Source: a virus. Taken from it: DNA of 26,507 nt. The translations under genes and the position numbers were made by a program. The DNA lies in the IMG/VR virus record IMGVR_UViG_3300024343_000098, positions 1 through 26,507 of that record. One strand, written 5' to 3'. The notes beneath the pieces are model-generated. The model searched no databases. It had not been told where the DNA came from and worked only from the letters and a program-made list of their open reading frames with translations. Of the stretch, positions 4,999-26,228 are shown one piece after another; the stretch's first letter is position 1; each line of letters opens with the position of its first letter.

Positions 4999-6224
4999 TG
5001 GCCCCGAAAATTAATGATCCTTTGGCTTTGATTCAATATTTGCAGAATGGTTCAGGTGGGAAGTCACCTTCACCTTCGTCGCAGTTGAACTATCAGCAGG
5101 ATCTTTTGTCGACGCTATTTAATCCTCAGTTTGCTGCTGCTAATGACATGTATGATCCTTTGTCTTTAACTTCTACACCTTTTCAGTTTGCGACACCAGT
5201 TTTAACTGGTGCGCTAAATAGTGCTACTCCTATTTGGCAAGAGGTTGCTCAAGCAATTATGAGTGGAACTATTGATCGTCAGAACGCTATTAGTGCTGTT
5301 GCTGAGGCTTTGGGTGTTGACGAGTATTCGACTGGTGCTGGTCTTACTATTGCTGATGTTAAATCTCAGATTGACTCAATGTTTAAAGAGGCTGGAGATA
5401 AACAAAACGCAGAGTTTAAGTATCAAGAAGATCTACGCAATTCTGAACAAAGCAATGTTTATGGTAAGGCTGGCTTGCCTCAACCTACTGAACAGTACAC
5501 GCTTGATACGATGCCTATAAGTTCTGATTTGCAAAATATGTTTGCTCGTTTGCAATCTCAAAATACTGCTTTAAGTTCTAAGGCTTCCGAGGCAAAGGGT
5601 GCTACTAAATTGGCTAAGGCTCGTATGCTTGCTTACGCCAAAGATAATCCTACGACAGTTGACGAGTCAGCCCCTGTTGTTAACCCGATTCCTAATTCTG
5701 AATCTGACGTTAAAGCCTTGGCTAAAAAGTTAAATATTTCTGAGCAGTGGCTTCTTGATCGTTGGCGTGAAGATGATGATACATGGATTCCAGTTTATGA
5801 AGGCAACGACATTGTTAGTTATCGTCATCCAACTGCGATAGAGAAACGTGATAGTTGGCTTCCTAAAATGCAAAGCATTTTGGAAACCACTGGCAACCCT
5901 CTCATGGATAAGCCTGACCAAATTAATCGTGATCGCGCACAAGCAGTTCTTGGCTATAAGTCTGCTGGTGGCTTGATTACTGGGCTGCCTGTTTCTGCTG
6001 CTGATAAGCGTGAAACACAGTTAATGACTAATCGCGCTGCAAGCAATTCTGCTAATACTTTGAATGCCGAAAAAGAATATAGGCAAATGAAGGACATGTT
6101 GGCTCGTGCCTCTGCAACTGCGGGGAATAAGCAGATTGGTGAGTTGTTGGCTCTTAAACTTGCTGATAGAACACCTCTTTCTGATGCTTTAAATCAACGT
6201 GCTATGGGGCTTACAGGAAGGTAA
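4998..6224 (+). CDS. Predicted internal virion protein, 408 aa
   Basis: GGAGGA at 4987-4992 lies just upstream of the ATG, which shares one base with the previous stop. The protein is soluble-looking and mainly helical. Its N-terminus is Pro/Ser/Gln-rich and its mid-part has long helices. A segment near residues 240-262 (KALAKKLNISEQWLLDRWRE) resembles a small helical or helix-turn-helix unit. The C-terminal third, with EYRQMKDMLARASATAGNKQ, is another helix. It contains no cysteine. It lies directly before the giant virion gene with only 18 bases between them, suggesting that the two products work together, for example as core or ejection proteins. I do not recognise a named family, so the role is inferred from context. 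Confidence 0.76.
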   Translation: MAPKINDPLALIQYLQNGSGGKSPSPSSQLNYQQDLLSTLFNPQFAAANDMYDPLSLTSTPFQFATPVLTGALNSATPIWQEVAQAIMSGTIDRQNAISAVAEALGVDEYSTGAGLTIADVKSQIDSMFKEAGDKQNAEFKYQEDLRNSEQSNVYGKAGLPQPTEQYTLDTMPISSDLQNMFARLQSQNTALSSKASEAKGATKLAKARMLAYAKDNPTTVDESAPVVNPIPNSESDVKALAKKLNISEQWLLDRWREDDDTWIPVYEGNDIVSYRHPTAIEKRDSWLPKMQSILETTGNPLMDKPDQINRDRAQAVLGYKSAGGLITGLPVSAADKRETQLMTNRAASNSANTLNAEKEYRQMKDMLARASATAGNKQIGELLALKLADRTPLSDALNQRAMGLTGR

Positions 6225-9200: not shown

Positions 9201-12200
9201 GATTACGCTGCTCTTGCTGGCATGACTCAAGTTGCTGATGCTGGTGAAATTGCTGGTGTTAACGCATTTGATCAACCTGCTTCTGTCGTCCGTATGAGAC
9301 AGGGTGATGTTGTTGCACCTTTCGCAAAAGAGGCTGATCAGGTTGAACCTCTTACGTTTGGTCAGATGACAGACATTCTTCGTAGGTCTGTTGATAGTTC
9401 TATGGCGCAAGAATTCACCATCACTGTTGGTGGTGGTGGTCAGATGGCTGGTCTTATTAACCAGCAGGGCAGAACACTTAATGTTCGCATTAATGATTAT
9501 CTAGATATGTTTGATGAGCATGTTGATAATTTTGATTCATTTGACACTATCGATCAATCTTTGGATGAATGGATTAATGCTGATCCTCGTAGTTTGATTA
9601 CTGGTCGTGGAACTGTGCGTGGTGGTGGTGAGGAAATTGGTTTCCCCACTATGGTTGATCGTCCTGACATGTTTGGTGATGGTATTAAACGTGATGCTGC
9701 TGATGGCATGATGTCGTTGCGTCAAGAGATACGCAACATTCAAGATGAACTAGATAGTTTTAACGTCACTTACTTTGACTCTAAGACTGGTAAGCCTTTG
9801 GATTTACAAGGCAACAAACTTGACGTTAATACGTCAAGTCTTGCTCAGAAGGCTGCAGACGAAGCCAAGAAAGATTTGCAACGACTCCTTGTTGAGATCT
9901 ACTTTAAGGCTGAGGTGACTAAGCGTCAGAAACTTTTAGTTAACTCGCTTGCTCCTTTCGGTCTTGTTCCGACGCAAGATTATATGCGTCGTGTTGTTAA
10001 CTCTGTTGCTAAGCATTTTGGTAATAGTGCGAACGCTGAGGCTCGCACTGTTAACAGGGGTCTTATTGCTTTGCGTGATGTGTTGCAGGAAGTTGAACGT
10101 CAGGATTGGACTGGTCGTGAGGCCGAGTTGTTTGACGTTATTAATAAGGCGATTAATGGTAGTGGTGCTGGTGCTGTTGTCAGTAAGTTTGGTAATCGTA
10201 GTGATGCTAAGCGTTTGTTGAGAGAGTGGCGTATTCGTGGTGGTGTTGGTAAGGACACTGGTCGGGCTGGACAGTTACTTAAGGAACGTCGTGCTTTAAT
10301 TGAGGGTACTCCTAGGTACGAGCAAGTGCAAAAAGAAATTTTTGAACTTAGTCAAGAACGTGTTCGTTTTACTACTGAGCAACTTGTTCCTTGGTATTAC
10401 GCTGCTTATGGCGACAATGGTCTTGTTCCCACTAACCCTGAGATTATGGAAGCGTTGAAAACGCTTGCTGAAGTTAAAACTAATTATGGCAATCTTGCTG
10501 CTGATGCTACTGCTAGAGATCAGATCAAGTGGGTTCGTACTGTTATTAAGACGATGGAAGATCATCAACTTGATTTTAATAGGAATAGTCGTTGGCTTTC
10601 TGATGCTGCTGATCCTTTTATTAATCTTGACAATTTAGTTATTGGTGGTGTTAAGCGTAGTCGTCGTGGTACGACTGACAGGTTGCCAAGTTTGTATGCG
10701 TATAACTTGACTGAGATTGCTGATGATTGGGAGAAGGGTGCTGCTCGTTTGGCTAGTGCAGAATCTGCTTCTGCACAAGCCATTAAAGCACAGGCAGATT
10801 TTGCTGCGCAACGACAGACAGCGGAGCAGATCCTTGCTGCTAACGTTGATCCTTCTAAGTCTTTGCCTCAGTCTTTTGATGGTGCTAATCAACTTCAACT
10901 TGAACGTGCGTTGAGAGCACATCAAGATTTGGTGACGTTGCAGTCAGGTATTATGCATTCGTCTGCTAAGGATCGTGAAGAGTTGCATTCTATTTTGAGT
11001 GATCTTGCTCGTTATAACATTGCAGAGGACACACCTTTTACTCGTATTGAATCTCCTACTGCTGTTGCTAAGAAATTACTTCAGCAAGGTACACCCATCT
11101 ATGTTAAGAAAGGTGAGGTTTGGAAAGAAGTTAAGTCTATCGACGACATTGTTGAAGGTACTAACTATGCTGTCCATAATCAGGGTGCTGGGCTTAAAGA
11201 TGTCAATGCTGTCAATAAGGCTCATGCTGGTTATTTGAAGTTTCAGAAAGAACATGAAGTAACTGTTAATCTTGTTGCAACTGCTGAAAAAAAAGTTAAA
11301 GATATTGACGCTCGTCTTGTCGCTGCACGCACCAAGCCTAAGAATGTTAAAGATCTTTATGAGGTTGCAGATATTGAGAATGAGTTACTTGCTGCCAAGA
11401 AAGAATTAGAAGCGGCTCGTCGTACAAATTCTGAGGATTACAAACGCATGATGACTGCTAAGTCATCATTTGATTCTTCAATGAATATTATTGGCAATGG
11501 TGGCACTCGTCCTGTCATGGTTAATGGTGAGCAACTGACTTTGAGTCAAGTTGAATTTGAATCACTGTTTATCTCAGGCGGTGACAAGAAGGCTGTTGAT
11601 GCTCTTCTTGCTAAGCGTGAGGCTGTGCGTACCCGTCAGGTTCAGGTTGCTAAAAAAGAATGGGCTGTTAATGTCCAAAACTATTTGAAGTCTTTGGATG
11701 AGATTGGTGTTGCTCGTGGTGCTAAGCGAGTTGCAAATAGATCCTATGCTGGTGTCGACACGGGTCGACAGGTGTTGAAAACTCGTGCTGCTAACGAGTT
11801 GAAGGCAAAGATTGCTGCTGTTGAAGAGAACTTGCGTTTGATGTTCGAGAAAGAAGACATTGGCGATATTCTTTTCTATCAGAAGAGTATTCAAAAACAA
11901 ATTAGAAATTTGAAAGAATCTCAAGATGCGATCTTGGGAGATCTTGTTAATCAGTCACGCATCAAGGCTGGTTATAGAGTGGAACGTGAAGCACTCACTG
12001 GCAACAATGCTATTACACGAGGCATTGATGATTTCATTGACAAGGCTAATAAGAGAATGAATGCTCTTGTTGCCAGCACTGAAGAGTCGGGTGAAAAACT
12101 TGTTGAACTTCAGAAGTGGGCCGATCATTACGACATTCTTGTTTCGGCATCTAGACCTGAACAGCAGTCTGCTGCTTTGGCTAAGTTGCATCAAGTTGTT

Positions 12201-15909: not shown

Positions 15910-16063
15910 CAACGAAGTTCTCCTTGATTCGTTCTGCTGTCGCACCAATTGTGTCGATGATCGTCGGATCATCTTTTGCCATGTACAACACTGTCGCTAT
16001 TGTGAGCGCAGCGATGTCTTCAAACGACAGTGGTTTGTTAATTGGTTCATGTTCTTCGGTCAT
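15881..16063 (-). CDS. Small acidic protein, 60 aa
   Basis: The ATG at 16063 overlaps the stop of the sigma4-Nmad1 gene by four bases (ATGA) and has GAGGAG immediately upstream. The protein is acidic (EEHEP, DDPTIID, ENFVDETNEPE) with one hydrophobic helix in the middle (about residues 16-28, DIAALTIATVLYM) that is probably part of a small helical bundle rather than a membrane anchor. It has no cysteine. I do not recognise it. Junctions and ribosome site support a real gene translated together with its neighbours. Confidence 0.65.
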   Translation of the reverse strand: MTEEHEPINKPLSFEDIAALTIATVLYMAKDDPTIIDTIGATAERIKENFVDETNEPETA

Positions 16064-16836
16064 GACTCCTCTTTCAAGTTAAGTTTGAATGTTCCATTGC
16101 TAAGCATTCTTGCGATAGCGGAGTAGCCAACGATGTCCATCCACGTATCAATAACAGATTCGTTTTGTGGTTTGCTTCCACGCTTCTCAAGAGTTTTTAG
16201 TCTTGCGATCTTATCGCAAAGACGTACTGCCAATCCGATGAGACCAAAACCTAAAATGTTTTGGTGACCATAATCTTTTTGTTTTCTTACAAGAAGGTTG
16301 GTCATGTCTTCAGTGTTCCATACACCAACAGATTTAAGATGTGATGCAGCGAGTAAACCGAGATCGCCCATGTCCATCTCTGCTGCTTCTTCATAAATGG
16401 TGTCGTACACGAAGCCTGTGAGGTTCAATACGAACTTGTCCAGTTCGTTGGTTTCTACTTTGCGTTTAGTAGAGAACGTGTCCATGCTCTTCAGTGTCGC
16501 TTCTGCTGCCTCGTCCCATGTGTCAAACATGTCGTACCTTTCGTTGAGTGTTTTGTTTGTTGTGAGTAGTTGTCGTAGTTCTTCAATTGCTTTGTTAGCC
16601 AAACGCCATGCGTGAGGTTTGCTCACGCCAAGGCGTTCACCAAGTTTGCTGTACGGGATTCCTTCATAGAAGATTGCCTCGACACAGAACTTTGATTGCG
16701 GTGACAGCAACTCAATCGCATCCTGCACTGCCTCAATGTGGGAAGTGTTATCGGATTCGATAATGTCGCCATGTTGTAGCAGCCAATCCATTTCTGTTAC
16801 TGGTTTTGCTGCGAGCAGATCAGGGTTGAATGTCAT
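16060..16836 (-). CDS. Fusion: sigma-region-4-like HTH plus Nmad1-like domain, 258 aa
   Basis: The start is ATG 16836, just before the end of the upstream gene (17-base overlap); the frame stays open beyond it but would bury the neighbour. Residues about 44-91 (LSPQSKFCVEAIFYEGIPYS, then KLGERLGVSKPHAWRL) match the helix-turn-helix of sigma factor region 4, except that no region 2 or 3 is present. Residues about 176-248 contain QKDYGHQNI, VRLCDKIARL and NESVIDTWMDIVGYSAI, the pattern I know from the nucleotide-modification-associated domain Nmad1 (DUF1599): KxDYG, R..DK..R and NES..D...D...Y. That domain is associated with hypermodified-base pathways, and its acidic residues suggest a metal-bound phosphate chemistry. 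The combination could tie DNA recognition to nucleotide metabolism. The domain calls are by eye. Confidence 0.75.
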   Translation of the reverse strand: MTFNPDLLAAKPVTEMDWLLQHGDIIESDNTSHIEAVQDAIELLSPQSKFCVEAIFYEGIPYSKLGERLGVSKPHAWRLANKAIEELRQLLTTNKTLNERYDMFDTWDEAAEATLKSMDTFSTKRKVETNELDKFVLNLTGFVYDTIYEEAAEMDMGDLGLLAASHLKSVGVWNTEDMTNLLVRKQKDYGHQNILGFGLIGLAVRLCDKIARLKTLEKRGSKPQNESVIDTWMDIVGYSAIARMLSNGTFKLNLKEES

Positions 16837-20009: not shown

Positions 20010-20833
20010 TTTTGTGATCCTTCCTGTGGTTGTATGTCTGATGAAGTTAACTTGCTTCCTTTACAGATTGACCAGTACGAGCACCAAGTCTGACTACACA
20101 AGTAGTGTGTGTCATTCTTAGTCCACGAGTCATCTGTTCCGATTAAGAGTGCCTGCCTAATGAAAGGTCGGACCATCTCTTTAAGCCAATCGGCATGGCT
20201 TTCGTTACGGTGAACAGACAGTATTTGTGCCGATCCACCACGAACTAAAACCCCATACTTGAATGTTGCTGGGTATTCCAACCATCCATTAGCGACTGCT
20301 GCTGCAGCGTACATGGTTGGTTGAACTGCTTGCGACTGCTTGTCACGTTGGTTGTATTTACGTGCTGCAGTTTTCCAGTCCCACACACCTGTGGTGGTGA
20401 GACAGTCCATTGTTCCTTTGCCGTAGACAGTGATCTGCTCGTCACCGAGCATGAACTTGTCCAGTTCAAAATGGAATTCTTTTTCAACACCAACTACTTC
20501 GCCAACGTGGGGAAGAATGTTCTTGTCGAATTCTGTTACGAGTTCGTGTACGTAATCGTACAGTTGCTCGTTCGTGTACTTGACACGGTTGAAAGGTTCA
20601 TCAAGGAGTCTGTTTAACTCTGCGAGTCCAACCTTGATGCCTTCACCCTTGCCTTCAAGGATGCTGGCGATGCCAGCATGGACTGCTGTGCCGAGGATGG
20701 TTGCATCGTTCGGCATGTTCCATTCTTCCCTGATCATTCCTTGACGACCACGTTCGTTGCACATGAGTGCGTCACCAATCCATGATTGGCGAACGTACAC
20801 ATCTGTACCGTGTTCACGCTTTTCAATTCTCAT
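20006..20833 (-). CDS. Cas4/RecB-like PD-(D/E)XK nuclease with four-cysteine cluster
   Basis: This 275-aa protein is predicted to be a DNA exonuclease with an iron-sulfur cluster. H52 lies in GTAVHAGI; D143 in GKGTMDCLTT; D152 and K154 in WDWKTAARK; and Q-containing helix SQAVQPTMYAAAA follows, matching the RecB/Cas4 nuclease order. C25 near the N-terminus and C246, C251 and C257 in the C-terminus (CSQTWCSYWSIC) match the split 4Fe-4S ligands of the Cas4/AddB type. No cas1, cas2 or repeat array is nearby, so a phage recombination or host-DNA degradation role is more likely than CRISPR adaptation. A strong ribosome site (AAGGAGAA) sits 7 bases before the ATG, which overlaps the upstream stop by four bases. 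Confidence 0.87.
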   Translation of the reverse strand: MRIEKREHGTDVYVRQSWIGDALMCNERGRQGMIREEWNMPNDATILGTAVHAGIASILEGKGEGIKVGLAELNRLLDEPFNRVKYTNEQLYDYVHELVTEFDKNILPHVGEVVGVEKEFHFELDKFMLGDEQITVYGKGTMDCLTTTGVWDWKTAARKYNQRDKQSQAVQPTMYAAAAVANGWLEYPATFKYGVLVRGGSAQILSVHRNESHADWLKEMVRPFIRQALLIGTDDSWTKNDTHYLCSQTWCSYWSICKGSKLTSSDIQPQEGSQK

Positions 20834-21276
20834 TGCTGTTCTCCTTTATATTTTTGTACGAATAGGTTTGCTTGATACGGCGACATCGTCACCCCGAACT
20901 TGCATTTTGCATACACACGGATCGCAACACTGGGGAAGCCCAATTGTACACGACCAACTATCTCATTGTGTTGTTCGTCAGTCATCTCGAATGGTGTCAA
21001 CTTGCGACGTTGATTACGATCTGATTCTGTTAAACACGCTGTCTTCTTGATGATTGCGAACTCATCGTGGAACATGAGTTGCGCTGTCAAGAACTTGAAT
21101 ATCTTTGCGTCCGTCCAAGGGACGCAGAGATCTAGAAATTCTGCAATGTGTTCTCCTTGCCAACCGTTGACTGGGTCAACGAGAATCGGCGTTGGGGTCT
21201 TGACGACGACATCACAGAGACAGTCAATGTCGTGTGCGTCGACACCGCAGGTGTACGTGGGTAATTGTCTTGGCAT
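20830..21276 (-). CDS. Unknown first gene of replication operon, 148 aa, possible DNA-binding
   Basis: This is the first gene after the 157-base regulatory gap. AAGGAG lies 7 bases before ATG 21276. The N-terminal 25 residues contain a cysteine set (TCGVDAHDIDCLCDVVV) that I have seen at the start of uncharacterised phage proteins, and the C-terminal 45 residues (TDEQHNEIVGRVQLGFPSVA and a following helix pair) could form a helix-turn-helix. Total cysteines are six, so metal binding is possible. I do not recognise a named family. Because it heads the operon next to a dyad-containing promoter it could be an autoregulator, but an enzyme or host-takeover protein fits equally. Confidence 0.7.
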   Translation of the reverse strand: MPRQLPTYTCGVDAHDIDCLCDVVVKTPTPILVDPVNGWQGEHIAEFLDLCVPWTDAKIFKFLTAQLMFHDEFAIIKKTACLTESDRNQRRKLTPFEMTDEQHNEIVGRVQLGFPSVAIRVYAKCKFGVTMSPYQANLFVQKYKGEQQ

Positions 21277-21305: not shown

Positions 21306-21335
21306 ATCAACCGAAGCCTTAGGGCTTCGGTTGAT
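21306..21335 (-). promoter_or_regulatory. 13-bp hairpin in leader of replication operon
   Basis: ATCAACCGAAGCC (21306-21318) pairs perfectly with GGCTTCGGTTGAT (21323-21335) around TTAG. It lies between the predicted leftward promoter and the first gene, so it would be in the 5' leader, about 30 bases before the start codon. There is no U-tract after it on either strand. Confidence 0.65.
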
Positions 21336-21362
21336 CTAGGACTAGTGGCTCGCTCTGCTCGC

Positions 21363-21392
21363 AGTATAACGACGACGTGTCGTCGTGCGGTG
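21363..21392 (-). promoter_or_regulatory. Predicted leftward promoter of the replication operon
   Basis: On the - strand, CACCGCA (21392-21386) is followed after exactly 17 bases by TATACT (21368-21363). The same layout appears at 23204-23175. Transcription would begin near 21356, giving a leader of about 80 bases before the first gene. Strength and start are inferred. Confidence 0.65.
21369..21386. promoter_or_regulatory. Operator-like dyad in promoter spacer
   Basis: ACGACGAC and GTCGTCGT (read on the - strand) form an 8-2-8 dyad that fills the spacer between the predicted -35 and -10 boxes, a classical place for a repressor site. The second promoter with the same boxes lacks it. Confidence 0.5.
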
Positions 21393-21400
21393 GAAACAAG

Positions 21401-21431
21401 TGTAGCCACACACTTTTGGTGTGTGGCTACA
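21401..21431 (-). terminator. 13-bp hairpin just past the zinc-ribbon gene, probable leftward terminator
   Basis: TGTAGCCACACAC (21401-21413) pairs perfectly with GTGTGTGGCTACA (21419-21431), with a five-base loop. It begins 2 bases after the stop codon of the leftward zinc-ribbon gene. The stretch after it (CTTGTTTCC) is only partly U-rich. Actinobacterial terminators without U-tracts have been proposed, which would fit. Confidence 0.55.
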
Positions 21432-21433
21432 TC

Positions 21434-21580
21434 TCACTTCTTATCTGTCTCTGTCATTGCTGGGTGACCAGTGTGTTTGCTGCATGTCGGCGCAGCCTTC
21501 AAAGGTAGATGTGTTGTTATCTTGCCTCCGCATTTGAGACACACCCAGCGTTTCAGATTGTCTGAATTAGAACGGCTCAT
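21434..21580 (-). CDS. Small zinc-ribbon protein, 48 aa
   Basis: The start is ATG 21580, with AAGGAG 8 bases upstream; the frame is open further upstream but would overlap the neighbour deeply. WVCLKCGGKI, then a spacer of about 15 residues and PTCSKHTGH give a CxxC...CxxH metal-binding pattern. Basic Ser/Arg residues precede it and a charged tail follows. I know similar 'VxCxxCG...V.L..APTC..H' proteins from actinobacteriophages; their role is unknown to me, and nucleic-acid or protein binding is the usual inference. Its end abuts a 13-bp hairpin that probably terminates the small three-gene group. Confidence 0.75.
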   Translation of the reverse strand: MSRSNSDNLKRWVCLKCGGKITTHLPLKAAPTCSKHTGHPAMTETDKK

Positions 21581-21848
21581 TTCCGAACTCCTTGAAGTGG
21601 ATGAATCGCTGTTCAAGGCTCAGTGACCAACATGCATCGTCGGCTAAGCCGACGATGCGATTGATCTCTGGAATGTCTTCAACAACTTCAGCGTCGTCAT
21701 CATCAAACAATCTGTCGTAGCGAAGAATGTCGCCAGTCCATGAAGAACCAAAGTCAATTGATTTCTCCATGAGAAGACCGTCCTCGTCAATCGTTATGTG
21801 AACGATTGGTGTGAATGTGACTGTGTACCATTTCTTATTTGTTTCCAT
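21567..21848 (-). CDS. Small acidic protein, 93 aa
   Basis: ATG 21848 shares one base with the upstream stop (TAATG) and has GGAGGTT 6 bases before it. The protein starts with a beta-rich segment (KWYTVTFTPIVHITIDEDG), then has a strongly acidic stretch (DRLFDDDDAEVVEDIPE) and ends with two helices (GLADDACWSLSLEQRFIHF). It has one cysteine and no membrane segment. I do not recognise a family. Acidity raises the possibility of a DNA-mimic inhibitor, but with no known relative this is only a note. A perfect 11-bp hairpin lies in its coding sequence at 21634-21658. Confidence 0.68.
   Translation of the reverse strand: METNKKWYTVTFTPIVHITIDEDGLLMEKSIDFGSSWTGDILRYDRLFDDDDAEVVEDIPEINRIVGLADDACWSLSLEQRFIHFKEFGNEPF
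21634..21658 (-). promoter_or_regulatory. 11-bp perfect hairpin inside an acidic small gene
   Basis: GCATCGTCGGC (21634-21644) and GCCGACGATGC (21648-21658) pair perfectly around TAA. It lies inside coding sequence about 190 bases after that gene's start, upstream of the zinc-ribbon gene. There is no U-tract. Confidence 0.45.
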
Positions 21849-22048
21849 TATTCAACCTCCGTGATGATGTCTAGGACTTGTTGCTGGATTGCTACAAGAA
21901 GTTGCATGTCAACCTGCGATGCTTTCAACAGGTTCTTGTTGTCGATGTGCTTGAACATTTTGTTTGACAGGTTGTCAATCGCAATGCCGAGCGTTTTATG
22001 AAGAGCCATTACTTCTTCTAGGGATAGGTTTAATGTTAATTCTTGCAT
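21848..22048 (-). CDS. Small helical protein, 66 aa
   Basis: I start at ATG 22048, with AGAAGGAAA 7 bases upstream; the open frame extends further up but into a hairpin-containing gap. The protein begins with QELTLNLSLEEVMALHKTLG and continues as two predicted helices with heptad-like hydrophobics (LLVAIQQQVLDIITEVE at the end). It has no cysteine or membrane segment. It resembles many short helical phage proteins that start with a '...L.LS.EEV..L...L' strand-helix unit, but I cannot name a family. It is translated together with the acidic and zinc-ribbon genes that follow. Confidence 0.7.
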   Translation of the reverse strand: MQELTLNLSLEEVMALHKTLGIAIDNLSNKMFKHIDNKNLLKASQVDMQLLVAIQQQVLDIITEVE

Positions 22049-22081
22049 GTTGTTTCCTTCTGTTAGTTGGTGGATTGGTTT

Positions 22082-22107
22082 GGTGGGTGGCGCAAGCGCC
22101 ACCCACC
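22082..22107 (-). terminator. 12-bp GC-rich hairpin between two leftward genes
   Basis: GGTGGGTGGCGC (22082-22093) and GCGCCACCCACC (22096-22107) are perfect complements with two bases between, so the loop is effectively four bases. It starts 9 bases after the stop of the DUF932 gene. No U-tract follows on either strand. It is either a U-less terminator or an mRNA processing or stabilising element. Confidence 0.55.
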
Positions 22108-22116
22108 GATATTACA

Positions 22117-23127
22117 TCAGGCGAAGGCTGAGACAGCCTTAGCAGTGAGTGGGAAGTCGTCACGTAGCAGACGACGAATCGACGCAACGTCACGTGAATT
22201 ATTACGGATCACCGAACGATGCTGTTCGTAACCCTGCACAGCCATGACAGCATCAAACGCAGTCTCGCCACGAGTCTTCTCATTCCACTCTGCAACGATT
22301 GCATCCCATGCAGTGTCATACATGGACTGACTACGACCACTGTCCGTAGGACGTGAACCGATAACAGCAGGGATGACCTGCTGAGTCAGCGTGCGCTTAG
22401 TTGCATCAATATCTAGAAGACGATTGATCTCAAGATCGAACTGATCAAACGATGTCATCATCTCTTCAAGAGACTTGATAGCAGACACAGCGATGTCGTT
22501 TGCATTGCGTGTGTGACGAATCATGAACCCAGTCTGAGCATTCCAAGGAGTGAACGTGTTCTGACACACCCACAAGTTGTTCATGTACTTCACAGCAAGA
22601 GGGTACGAACCATCATGCGATGTATACACACCCATGTAGCGACTCATCGTGTCGCCATCCTTGCCAGTGTCGCCATCCTTACGAACAACCTTGACCATGT
22701 CACGGAACTCGATCACAAGGAACACAACCTTGCCACCCCACAGTTCTACAGCAGAGACAGGGAACGCATCACCACGTGCCTTCATGATCACGTCCGTGTA
22801 CTGACCGAGCAACTCGTTCTGTACCTCGCCGTACTTCTCTGAATGCATACCAAGGATGCGCTGCTTGTCGGTTCGGATGATTGCAGCGTACTGATCTGCG
22901 TCTTCCTGAAGGAGTCCTAACTCCTGAAGGGTGCGCTTCTCAACAGTCCAGTCAAGCCCTGCAGTAACAAGCAGGTCACGTCCTGTGCGAATGTCATCAG
23001 TGATTGGTGTCTTGATACCGACGACTTCACCTTTGTTGTTGCGTGACTCTCCGAGTCCATGCCAAGGCACTTCACGGAACGCTCCGCTTGTGACTCCACC
23101 GATAACACCGTTCTTGTCGTAACCCAT
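22117..23127 (-). CDS. DUF932 / phage-plasmid-like protein, 336 aa
   Basis: The N-terminal FREVPWHGLGES is the start signature of DUF932 (TIGR03299) proteins, and FPVSAVELWGGKVVFLVIEF, DGSYPLAVKYMNNLWVCQNT and the RHTRNAND segment follow in the order expected. These are common on phages and plasmids; their function is not established, though their frequent place beside replication genes suggests a role there. Start ATG 23127 has AAGGAG about 8 bases before it, preceded by an AC-rich leader and the second predicted promoter (CACCGCA-N17-TATAGT, 23175-23204). The length is normal for the family. Confidence in the family is high; in the function, low. Confidence 0.88.
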   Translation of the reverse strand: MGYDKNGVIGGVTSGAFREVPWHGLGESRNNKGEVVGIKTPITDDIRTGRDLLVTAGLDWTVEKRTLQELGLLQEDADQYAAIIRTDKQRILGMHSEKYGEVQNELLGQYTDVIMKARGDAFPVSAVELWGGKVVFLVIEFRDMVKVVRKDGDTGKDGDTMSRYMGVYTSHDGSYPLAVKYMNNLWVCQNTFTPWNAQTGFMIRHTRNANDIAVSAIKSLEEMMTSFDQFDLEINRLLDIDATKRTLTQQVIPAVIGSRPTDSGRSQSMYDTAWDAIVAEWNEKTRGETAFDAVMAVQGYEQHRSVIRNNSRDVASIRRLLRDDFPLTAKAVSAFA

Positions 23128-23174
23128 GATAATTTCTCCTTTGTTTGTTGTTGGTTGATTTGACTTACTTTAAA

Positions 23175-23204
23175 ACTATACACGTTAGAACTGAACATGC
23201 GGTG
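23175..23204 (-). promoter_or_regulatory. Predicted leftward promoter of the DUF932 gene
   Basis: CACCGCA (23204-23198) and TATAGT (23180-23175) are separated by exactly 17 bases, as in the replication-operon promoter. It lies just past the stop of the upstream 48-aa gene. The predicted leader is about 40 bases. Confidence 0.62.
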
Positions 23205-24529: not shown

Positions 24530-24569
24530 GTCTGTTCCTTTCATGTTGTGTTGTGTTGGGTGAGTGTAA

Positions 24570-24595
24570 GGTGAGCGCACATGAGTGCGCCCACC
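24570..24595 (-). terminator. Hairpin in gap after the acidic-tail gene
   Basis: GCGCAC (24575-24580) pairs with GTGCGC (24585-24590), and after one mismatch GGTG pairs with CACC, giving an interrupted stem at 24570-24580/24585-24595. It lies 31 bases after the leftward stop at 24626. No U-tract follows. Confidence 0.4.
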
Positions 24596-24604
24596 CGACA
24601 CGAA

Positions 24605-24622
24605 TTAATACAGGTGTATTAA
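24605..24622. repeat. 8-2-8 AT-rich palindrome TTAATACA-GG-TGTATTAA
   Basis: The arms at 24605-24612 and 24615-24622 pair perfectly. The 11 bases AGGTGTATTAA (24612-24622) recur at 26258-26268, each time just downstream of a leftward stop codon. It could be a protein-binding site; by chance a palindrome of this size is not surprising, so the repeat is the stronger observation. Confidence 0.4.
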
Positions 24623-24625
24623 ATC

Positions 24626-25246
24626 TCAGGAGACAGTCTCAACGTCCCAATCGGGATCATCAATGCTCACGTCAATATTGGTGACATCATCAGTGTCATC
24701 AGTGTCAATGTAATCAAGATCACCGTTGTCAGCAGCGTCACTGATGCGTGAATTGAACAGATCGTACAACTCGTCCTCATCGTACGACTTAGGAACACGA
24801 GCCGTGATAGTTACACGCTGAGTAGTGACGACATCAAACTTGAGTGTGCGCTCTTCGTAGAACGGACGCTGAAGAGTGTTGTCGTTGAACAACTGTTCAA
24901 GCATTCGCCACATGTCTGAATCTTCGGTCAGATAATCACGATCAACTAACTTGTCAATGAACATCTGAAACGAATCAACGAGTTCTGAGTGTTGACGATA
25001 CGCCTCAGACAAACGCTCACGCTGGAAAGTGTTGGCTTGACTCAAACGAACATTGTCGGCAAGACGTTCGTTGTATTCATCAGTCTTGTTCATGATGTCA
25101 GTCAGACCGATTGGTTCGGCTTGCACTTCACTGAACTGATCATCGTAACGTGCTGACTTGTAGCCATTGACGACATAAGCCGCTAACTGATAATCATGAA
25201 TGCGTGAGTCATGAATGATCTCGATAAGTGTCGTGGTCTTTTCCAT
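24626..25246 (-). CDS. Unknown protein with very acidic C-terminus, 206 aa
   Basis: I start at ATG 25246, where AAGGAGAAA is 8 bases upstream and the AC-rich leader matches other genes. An in-frame ATG at 25312, with AAAGGAAAG before it and one base after the previous stop, is a real alternative and adds 22 residues. Residues about 1-120 are helical. The middle part (KFDVVTTQRVTITARVPKSY) is beta-like. The last 45 residues are dominated by Asp (DYIDTDDTDDVTNIDVSIDD). Such a tail could mimic DNA or bind basic proteins or metal. I recognise no family, and no cysteine is present. Confidence 0.72.
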   Translation of the reverse strand: MEKTTTLIEIIHDSRIHDYQLAAYVVNGYKSARYDDQFSEVQAEPIGLTDIMNKTDEYNERLADNVRLSQANTFQRERLSEAYRQHSELVDSFQMFIDKLVDRDYLTEDSDMWRMLEQLFNDNTLQRPFYEERTLKFDVVTTQRVTITARVPKSYDEDELYDLFNSRISDAADNGDLDYIDTDDTDDVTNIDVSIDDPDWDVETVS

Positions 25247-25313
25247 TTTGGTTTCTCCTTGTGTTGTTGGTTGATTGAAAACTGTTACCTCATTGCTGTG
25301 TTCTAAATTCATT

Positions 25314-26228
25314 TCACTTTCCTTTCTTGTTTGTGGATGGATATACATTCTGCACTAGCAGATTCTTACGAGAGAGCGCATAGCCCTTCGCATACAGATC
25401 AACGAAGACCGAACGAGGATCGTTAAAGCGATCATCAGTGAGGTCACCGTCAATTACACGGTAGGCATCAACACCTAACGTGAGTTCTTTCATAACAGGT
25501 TCACCTTTCTTGCGATTGGTGACGACAGCAACACTGCCACCTGCACACAAGAACGCATCCATCAGATCAAGATGCTTACTCGTCTTCTCATTGAACGAAT
25601 AGATAAGACGATAATTCTTTTGTATCTGATGACCATTCTCAACGAAGCGTTGCATCATCATTGGATCTTTCGTGTAGTCATAAGCCTGCACAGTGAGATC
25701 ACCGAACAATTTCTGTGACACTGCCCACCAAGGCAGATCGCTATTGACATTCAAGCGCATCGACATGAGTCCGTATTTCTCTGTCGCTTGCATGATCTCG
25801 TGACGTAACACAAGCATGAATGCAGTAGGCATTGCAGCAAAGCAGTACGTACGCCAGTTACGTGCTGCTTGCACTTTATTGAACGAACCCTTGCCATGCT
25901 TAAGAACACACACCTTGATGCATGAACCTGCATTCTCACAAGTGTCGTACGTGACACCCTCAACGACAGTGCTACGAGCGCTGTTCATTGTGAGTGTGAT
26001 CGTAGGCAAAGCATTCTTGGCGATCTTGAGATTGCCTTTGTCAGTTGACGTGAGTTTGCTAGGCGTGTTCTGCAGACCGAACATTGGTTTGAACTTTGCG
26101 AACTCTGCATACACATCTTTTGCATACTCCTTCCACTCTTGATCAGTCCACCGTTTAGAGTGACCCATATACAAATGGAATTCGTCGGCACGCTGTAAAA
26201 GCGTGTCGCTTAAGTTGATGATTTTCAT
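25314..26228 (-). CDS. GP88-like protein, 304 aa
   Basis: Two features fit the GP88 family, named for a mycobacteriophage gene product of unknown function: an N-terminal NTPSKLT-type segment and a cysteine cluster in CENAGSCIKVCVLKHG (C97, C103, C107) followed by ARNWRTYCF (C129). Next come a segment MSMRLNVNSDLPWWAVS and a C-terminal AYRVIDGDLTDDRFND with the YAKGYALSRK end. The CX5CX3C spacing may hold a metal or iron-sulfur cluster. ATG 26228 has AAAGGAAAC about 8 bases upstream. It is probably the first gene of a small transcript starting near 26250. The family identity is good from memory; function is unknown. Confidence 0.75.
   Translation of the reverse strand: MKIINLSDTLLQRADEFHLYMGHSKRWTDQEWKEYAKDVYAEFAKFKPMFGLQNTPSKLTSTDKGNLKIAKNALPTITLTMNSARSTVVEGVTYDTCENAGSCIKVCVLKHGKGSFNKVQAARNWRTYCFAAMPTAFMLVLRHEIMQATEKYGLMSMRLNVNSDLPWWAVSQKLFGDLTVQAYDYTKDPMMMQRFVENGHQIQKNYRLIYSFNEKTSKHLDLMDAFLCAGGSVAVVTNRKKGEPVMKELTLGVDAYRVIDGDLTDDRFNDPRSVFVDLYAKGYALSRKNLLVQNVYPSTNKKGK

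Follow-up and report, generated by a model that had tools for sequence, protein, structure and literature searches.

Two leftward genes in an uncultivated phage fragment, the 26,507-nt IMG/VR stretch referred to here as the window, are each preceded by the heptamer CACCGCA, 17 further bases and a TATA(C/G)T hexamer, raising the question of whether these are promoters of one type and what reads a box that stands where a -35 element would be expected. Gene control in phages of uncultivated bacteria is little known. Two promoters forming a regulon around a non-canonical box, together with a candidate reader that has no recognized family and a WhiB gene in the same slot of a relative, would allow precise predictions about how an actinobacterial polymerase is redirected. 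In the window, structural genes (tail and fibre proteins) form a rightward block, and the genes of the leftward block include, by Pfam and PHROG scans, DUF932, a PD-(D/E)XK exonuclease, a DnaB-like helicase, a primase-like protein and RusA. The host is probably actinobacterial, since distant DUF932 relatives occur in Arthrobacter and Streptomyces phages and one relative of the window (G008) encodes a WhiB protein, a family described as confined to actinobacteria (PMC6282962). A search of the annotated phage collection returned no DNA match or near relative of the window and no relative of the 148-aa product (g148) encoded behind one of the two sites. Our answer, partly supported by comparison of related sequences, is a lineage-specific pair of putative promoters that combine a host-type -10 with a non-canonical box in the -35 position.

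Two box and -10 sites in the window

The first-pass annotation placed CACCGCA-N17-TATA(C/G)T at 21392-21363 and 23204-23175 of the minus strand, and we found exact matches at both, with no further copy on either strand of the window. The site at 21392-21363 (locus B) reads CACCGCA CGACGACACGTCGTCGT TATACT and precedes g148; the one at 23204-23175 (locus A) reads CACCGCA TGTTCAGTTCTAACGTG TATAGT, precedes the DUF932 gene, and has a box that starts 3 bases past the stop codon of the small gene before it (Table 1). AAGGAG-ATG starts lie downstream of both, as had been described, and the leader is short at locus A (about 50 nt from the -10 to the ATG) but not at locus B, where a structured leader of about 85 nt replaces the short one originally reported. 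Dinucleotide shuffling of the window (2000 replicates) produced two TATANT sites with an identical upstream 7-mer at gap 17 in 3.7% of the shuffles and, when any gap from 15 to 19 was allowed, in 13%; the pair within this single window is thus only weakly beyond chance and, taken alone, suggestive only.

Table 1. Positions in the window of the putative promoter elements, leader structures and genes discussed in the text
Feature	Position	Strand	Remarks
Locus A upstream box CACCGCA (-35 position)	23198..23204	-	CACCGCA in G002, CACCACA in G011-G014, AACCGCA in G015, all N17
Locus A -10 hexamer TATAGT	23175..23180	-	TATAGT or TATAAT in 7/7 clade genomes
DUF932 gene behind putative promoter A	22117..23127	-	PF06067
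Hairpin, 13 bp, then ACTTGTTT, just upstream of putative promoter B	21401..21431	-	Replaced in G011-G015 by an unambiguous intrinsic terminator with a T-run
Locus B upstream box CACCGCA (-35 position)	21386..21392	-	TACCGCA in G002, CACCGCT at N18 in G011-G015
Locus B -10 hexamer TATACT	21363..21368	-	Same in all relatives examined there, box or no box
Leader hairpin 1, GCGAGC AGA GCGAGC, tandem G.A, directly after the -10	21348..21362	-	Perfect hairpin here in 5/7 versions
Leader hairpin 2, 13-bp stem ATCAACC...GGTTGAT	21306..21335	-	Flanked by CACTAGTCCTAG and ACAGTA
g148, 148-aa gene behind putative promoter B, candidate autoregulator	20830..21276	-	WhiB in its place in G008
258-aa protein, sigma-70 region 4 domain fused to DUF1599, alternative candidate reader	16060..16836	-	PF04545, PF07659

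The -10 hexamers found at these loci (TATACT, TATAGT and, in relatives, TATAAT) match the TATAAT-like sigma-70/sigma-A consensus at five or six of six positions. Together with the 17-bp spacing, this is what the sites share with ordinary promoters of that class; the difference lies in the box, whose ACCGCA matches TTGACA at only two of six positions, in agreement with the original statement that it is not a standard -35. No TTGACA-like hexamer better than 2/6 was found 16-19 bp away near either site.

For a weaker third candidate proposed at 24546-24575 (CGCA-N17-TACACT), the letters are present but fall within a perfect 12-bp intercistronic hairpin, and the corresponding gap in G003 holds an unrelated hairpin-like sequence without them; we therefore rejected it as a promoter of the CACCGCA kind. 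Strong intercistronic hairpins lacking a T-run occur at about 24562-24605 of the minus strand (GGTGGGCGCAC..GTGCGCTCACC), after a 240-aa ORF (24626-25348), and at about 22085-22125 (-), after the DUF932 gene (GGGTGGCGC..GCGCCACCC).

Conservation of the paired motif among relatives

The IMG/VR relatives used for comparison were G002 (about 88-90% nucleotide identity to the window), G011-G015 (80-84% protein identity in g148), and the further relatives G003-G006 and G007-G010; G001 is 99.9% identical to the window and was not treated as an independent sample. Locus A was defined as the region before DUF932 (in genomes that lack DUF932, before the gene that follows, g84), and locus B as that before the 148-aa gene. 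When 15 related contigs were scanned on the leftward coding strand for the box, with up to one mismatch allowed and gaps of 5-60 before TATANT, gaps 17 and 18 formed the peak, with 11 distinct sequences as against 0-2 at any other gap, and every match at these two gaps mapped to locus A or locus B. Within a clade of seven genomes, CACCGCA-like boxes 15-19 bases before TATANT were confined to the two loci, always at gap 17 or 18, and both loci carried box and -10 in all seven. Locus A reads CACCGCA-N17-TATAGT in the window and G002, CACCACA-N17-TATAAT in G011-G014 and AACCGCA-N17-TATAAT in G015; locus B reads CACCGCA-N17-TATACT in the window, TACCGCA-N17-TATACT in G002 and CACCGCT-N18-TATACT in G011-G015, the gap in this last group being 18, not 17. 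The same two sites are present in an eighth contig (L084/L158).

Changes are distributed unevenly around these elements. With the sequences anchored on the -10, the window and G011 differ at locus A in one of seven box positions, one of six -10 positions and 10 of 17 spacer positions, with 26 of 36 upstream and 18 of 24 downstream flanking positions changed. At locus B, the window and G002 differ at 1/7 positions in the box, 0/6 in the -10, 5/17 in the spacer, 5/36 upstream and 1/24 downstream; among G011-G014 the locus B box is unchanged and the upstream flank differs at 12-16 of 36 positions. G015 keeps ACCGCA-N17-TATAAT at locus A without DUF932 and in a different sequence context. Such low change in the boxes against a free spacer is the pattern expected of two functional boxes, and its recurrence at the same loci in relatives makes the paired motif convincing beyond its chance level in the window. 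The view that these are two promoters of one type draws support from a box, spacing and -10 that persist in seven genomes amid changing spacers and flanks. The locus A boxes of G011-G014 fall within a frame that can be read ahead of the next gene, so the match there could be partly coding.

Absence of the box from related phages that keep the genes had been named as grounds for refuting the promoter claim, and the comparison gave a divided result: the box is kept throughout the seven-genome clade but is gone from G003-G010 though the genes remain. In these relatives locus B retains TATACT and the leader, so the box is lineage-specific and dispensable for some versions of promoter B. G003-G006 and G007 carry a GTTGA-N5/6-TCAAC dyad in the region where the box would be.

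An IMG/VR-wide scan with a spacing control led us to reject CACCGCA as a general phage promoter class: CACCGCA-N17-TATANT followed by a ribosome-binding site and ATG returned three families, and the N22 control two matches. L168 is unrelated, and in L164-L167 CACCGCA lies within the stem of a terminator hairpin, whose 3' arm CACCGCACTT(T)n is followed by TATAAT 17 bp past CACCGCA; this is a terminator fused to a -10, resembling the motif by chance.

Candidate readers of the CACCGCA box

An ordinary -10 points to the host sigma-A polymerase and a replaced -35 to a helper protein. We accordingly regard loci A and B as putative promoters at which sigma-A would read the -10 and a phage regulator probably assists in reading the box. 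This favors one of the two explanations originally offered, a phage-altered polymerase or phage regulator; the other, a host sigma factor of a different group, fits poorly with an ordinary TATANT -10, and no known sigma factor with a CACCGCA -35 was identified. At locus B, the promoter claim gains further support from a terminator-type hairpin just upstream, and the resulting order of hairpin, box, -10, leader and gene suggests that transcription stops there and then restarts.

The mechanism that we propose, with middling confidence, consists of two coordinated promoters with a primary-sigma -10 and a regulator-dependent box in place of the -35, g148 being the most likely reader. A and B would be coordinated leftward promoters of the early/replication gene block, their TATANT elements melted by the host's RNA polymerase carrying a primary sigma factor of the sigma-A type. 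The 7-bp CACCGCA would replace the TTGACA contact 17 bp upstream (18 in one subclade), where sigma region 4 would sit; with that contact replaced, the promoters would be weak alone and would depend on a phage protein that occupies the box next to sigma region 4 and switches them on or tunes them. Encoded behind promoter B, g148 would control both that promoter and promoter A.

In g148, C10, H15, C19 and C21 are invariant and followed by a C-terminal three-helix segment in a predicted structure of moderate quality (pLDDT 72). Against a role as the reader, a fold search of the PDB and a viral library gave no match, and profile searches found no recognized family and no match to WhiB (PF02467). 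Several observations are consistent with g148 as the protein that reads the box. The g148 protein of G001 is 80-83% identical to those of G011-G015, which have the box, and 45-48% to those of G003-G006, which do not, whereas for most neighboring early genes present in both groups G001 is closer to G003-G006. Box type thus appears to follow the g148 allele, a linkage that fits a cassette of a regulator and its own promoter. A mosaic boundary sets 21396-20830 of the window off from its neighbors: promoter B and g148 are G011-like and most flanking early genes are nearer G003-G006, which we take as a sign of regulatory cassette recombination. In G008 only, a TATACT-hairpin leader of the same kind precedes a WhiB gene instead of g148 (L149 11718-12023, minus strand; PF02467 E-value 1.6e-17), with the exonuclease gene next. 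Those WhiB proteins that have been examined bind region 4 of SigA, and WhiB7 is an activator of its own promoter (PMC3905903, PMC6282962). A more far-reaching version, which we consider rather unlikely, is that g148 founds an uncharacterized family of small actinophage regulators that substitutes its own CACCGCA contact for the -35 contact of host sigma region 4, regulates itself and coordinates two replication promoters, and is exchanged between phages together with its box as a cassette in the WhiB slot.

The layout resembles that of T4 middle promoters (MotA/AsiA) in its host-type -10, a phage box instead of a -35, and replication-type genes (PMC6755090), a likeness that we do not extend to class membership: the MotA box is centered near -30, nearer the -10, whereas the box here lies 17-18 bp upstream at the -35 position, its sequence differs, and only two sites are known here. 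Among the window proteins scanned against PHROG and Pfam, a part of those encoded by the genome, no MotA or AsiA homolog was named, and a protein with sigma region 4 is present instead. With WhiB/Wbl proteins at SigA promoters, which bind SigA region 4 beside the -35, the system shares a promoter followed by the gene of a small protein with cysteines, as well as the WhiB gene at the G008 locus; it differs in that g148 is no WhiB by profile search and in that the -35, which WhiB7 promoters retain and supplement with an AT-rich patch, here gives way to a G+C-rich box.

Reliance on the -10 with a degenerate -35 is common among sigma-A promoters in actinobacteria, and the two sites could be plain host promoters of this kind, with an inherited, modestly functional box and no phage regulator. 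The near-consensus TATANT and the persistence of TATACT at locus B under several unrelated upstream sequences agree with this explanation, which we nevertheless judge unlikely, given that a useless -35 should drift, yet the box occurs at two separate loci and at locus A is conserved far better than spacer and flanks across subclades. It is more doubtful still that the reader is the 258-aa protein, replacing host sigma region 4 on the polymerase and conferring CACCGCA specificity. Its region 4 domain is genuine (PF04545 E-value 4e-6, above the gathering cut-off; PHROG sigma factor, 3e-8; similarity to solved sigma factors, 1.5e-5), and the gene in G001 is nearer those of box-bearing G012 and G013 (66-67%) than those of G003-G006 (50-51%). 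The recognition helix SKPHAWRL, however, is identical in G003-G007, phages without the box; no match to sigma region 2, which binds core and melts the -10, was found in the protein, and its C-terminal part is DUF1599, suggestive of a role in nucleotide metabolism. The fusion of sigma region 4 to DUF1599, a nucleotide modification associated domain, occurs in every relative with a contig that extends over this region, and a literature search found no paper on such a phage fusion.

We place similarly little weight on CACCGCA being the operator of a repressor or another DNA-binding protein, with the spacing reflecting steric blocking, in place of a -35 substitute. The dyad that box-less relatives carry in the same region would suit an operator, as would the locus B spacer of the window, itself a dyad (ACGACGAC-AC-GTCGTCGT); against this, the box is not palindromic, the gap of 17 or 18 is sigma spacing, and the spacer dyad is lost in G002 where the box is kept, for which reason we rejected it as an operator.

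The structured leader at locus B

In the window, the locus B leader runs from 21368 to 21300 on the minus strand in the order TATACT, hairpin 1, CACNAGNMCTAGAT, hairpin 2, ATACAGTA. Hairpin 1 has a perfect stem of at least 5 pairs at the exact offset after TATACT in five of seven sequence-unrelated versions (random expectation 1.1% each; binomial tail 3.5e-9), its sequence differing in every group; in the window and G007 it is imperfect, with stems containing tandem G.A pairs. A conserved hairpin directly after TATACT means that a transcript starting 6-7 nt further on would begin within the hairpin and cut it, so hairpin 1 may work at the DNA level, as an operator covering the start site, or within read-through RNA. 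TATACT at locus B could likewise belong to a larger structured RNA or DNA element and be no -10 at all, its match with locus A coincidental. That a hairpin directly follows TATACT in seven unrelated versions, including L072, favors such an element; we nonetheless consider it highly improbable, as all seven clade genomes preserve box and spacing at each locus and locus A lacks a hairpin of this sort.

Hairpin 2 has folding z-scores of -4.3 to -5.9 in three groups, with stems that vary on both sides between groups, including a C-G pair in G003 against G-C in G004. A search of the leaders against Rfam gave nothing above threshold, and a scan of a host genome for the leader module, with 47 scattered, chance-like matches, was set aside. 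On contig L072 (about 1022-982, minus strand), TATACT-hairpin-CACAAGCACTAGATC, corresponding to the first half of the leader element, stands before a DUF7455 gene; tblastx found no similarity between this contig and the clade.

The leader of the first leftward genes has TATAAC 18 bp past a hairpin but lacks a TATANT box, and it was not counted as a third promoter. This hairpin, which lies outside the window (L133, about 11540-11720; G001, 5900-6018), has the apical loop TACCGCAGG, invariant across the window and G011 groups and G003/G006, on a stem that differs between subclades. Its form is ATC-stem-GATCTA, and the 3' flank GATCTA resembles the flank of the locus B hairpin, reversed.
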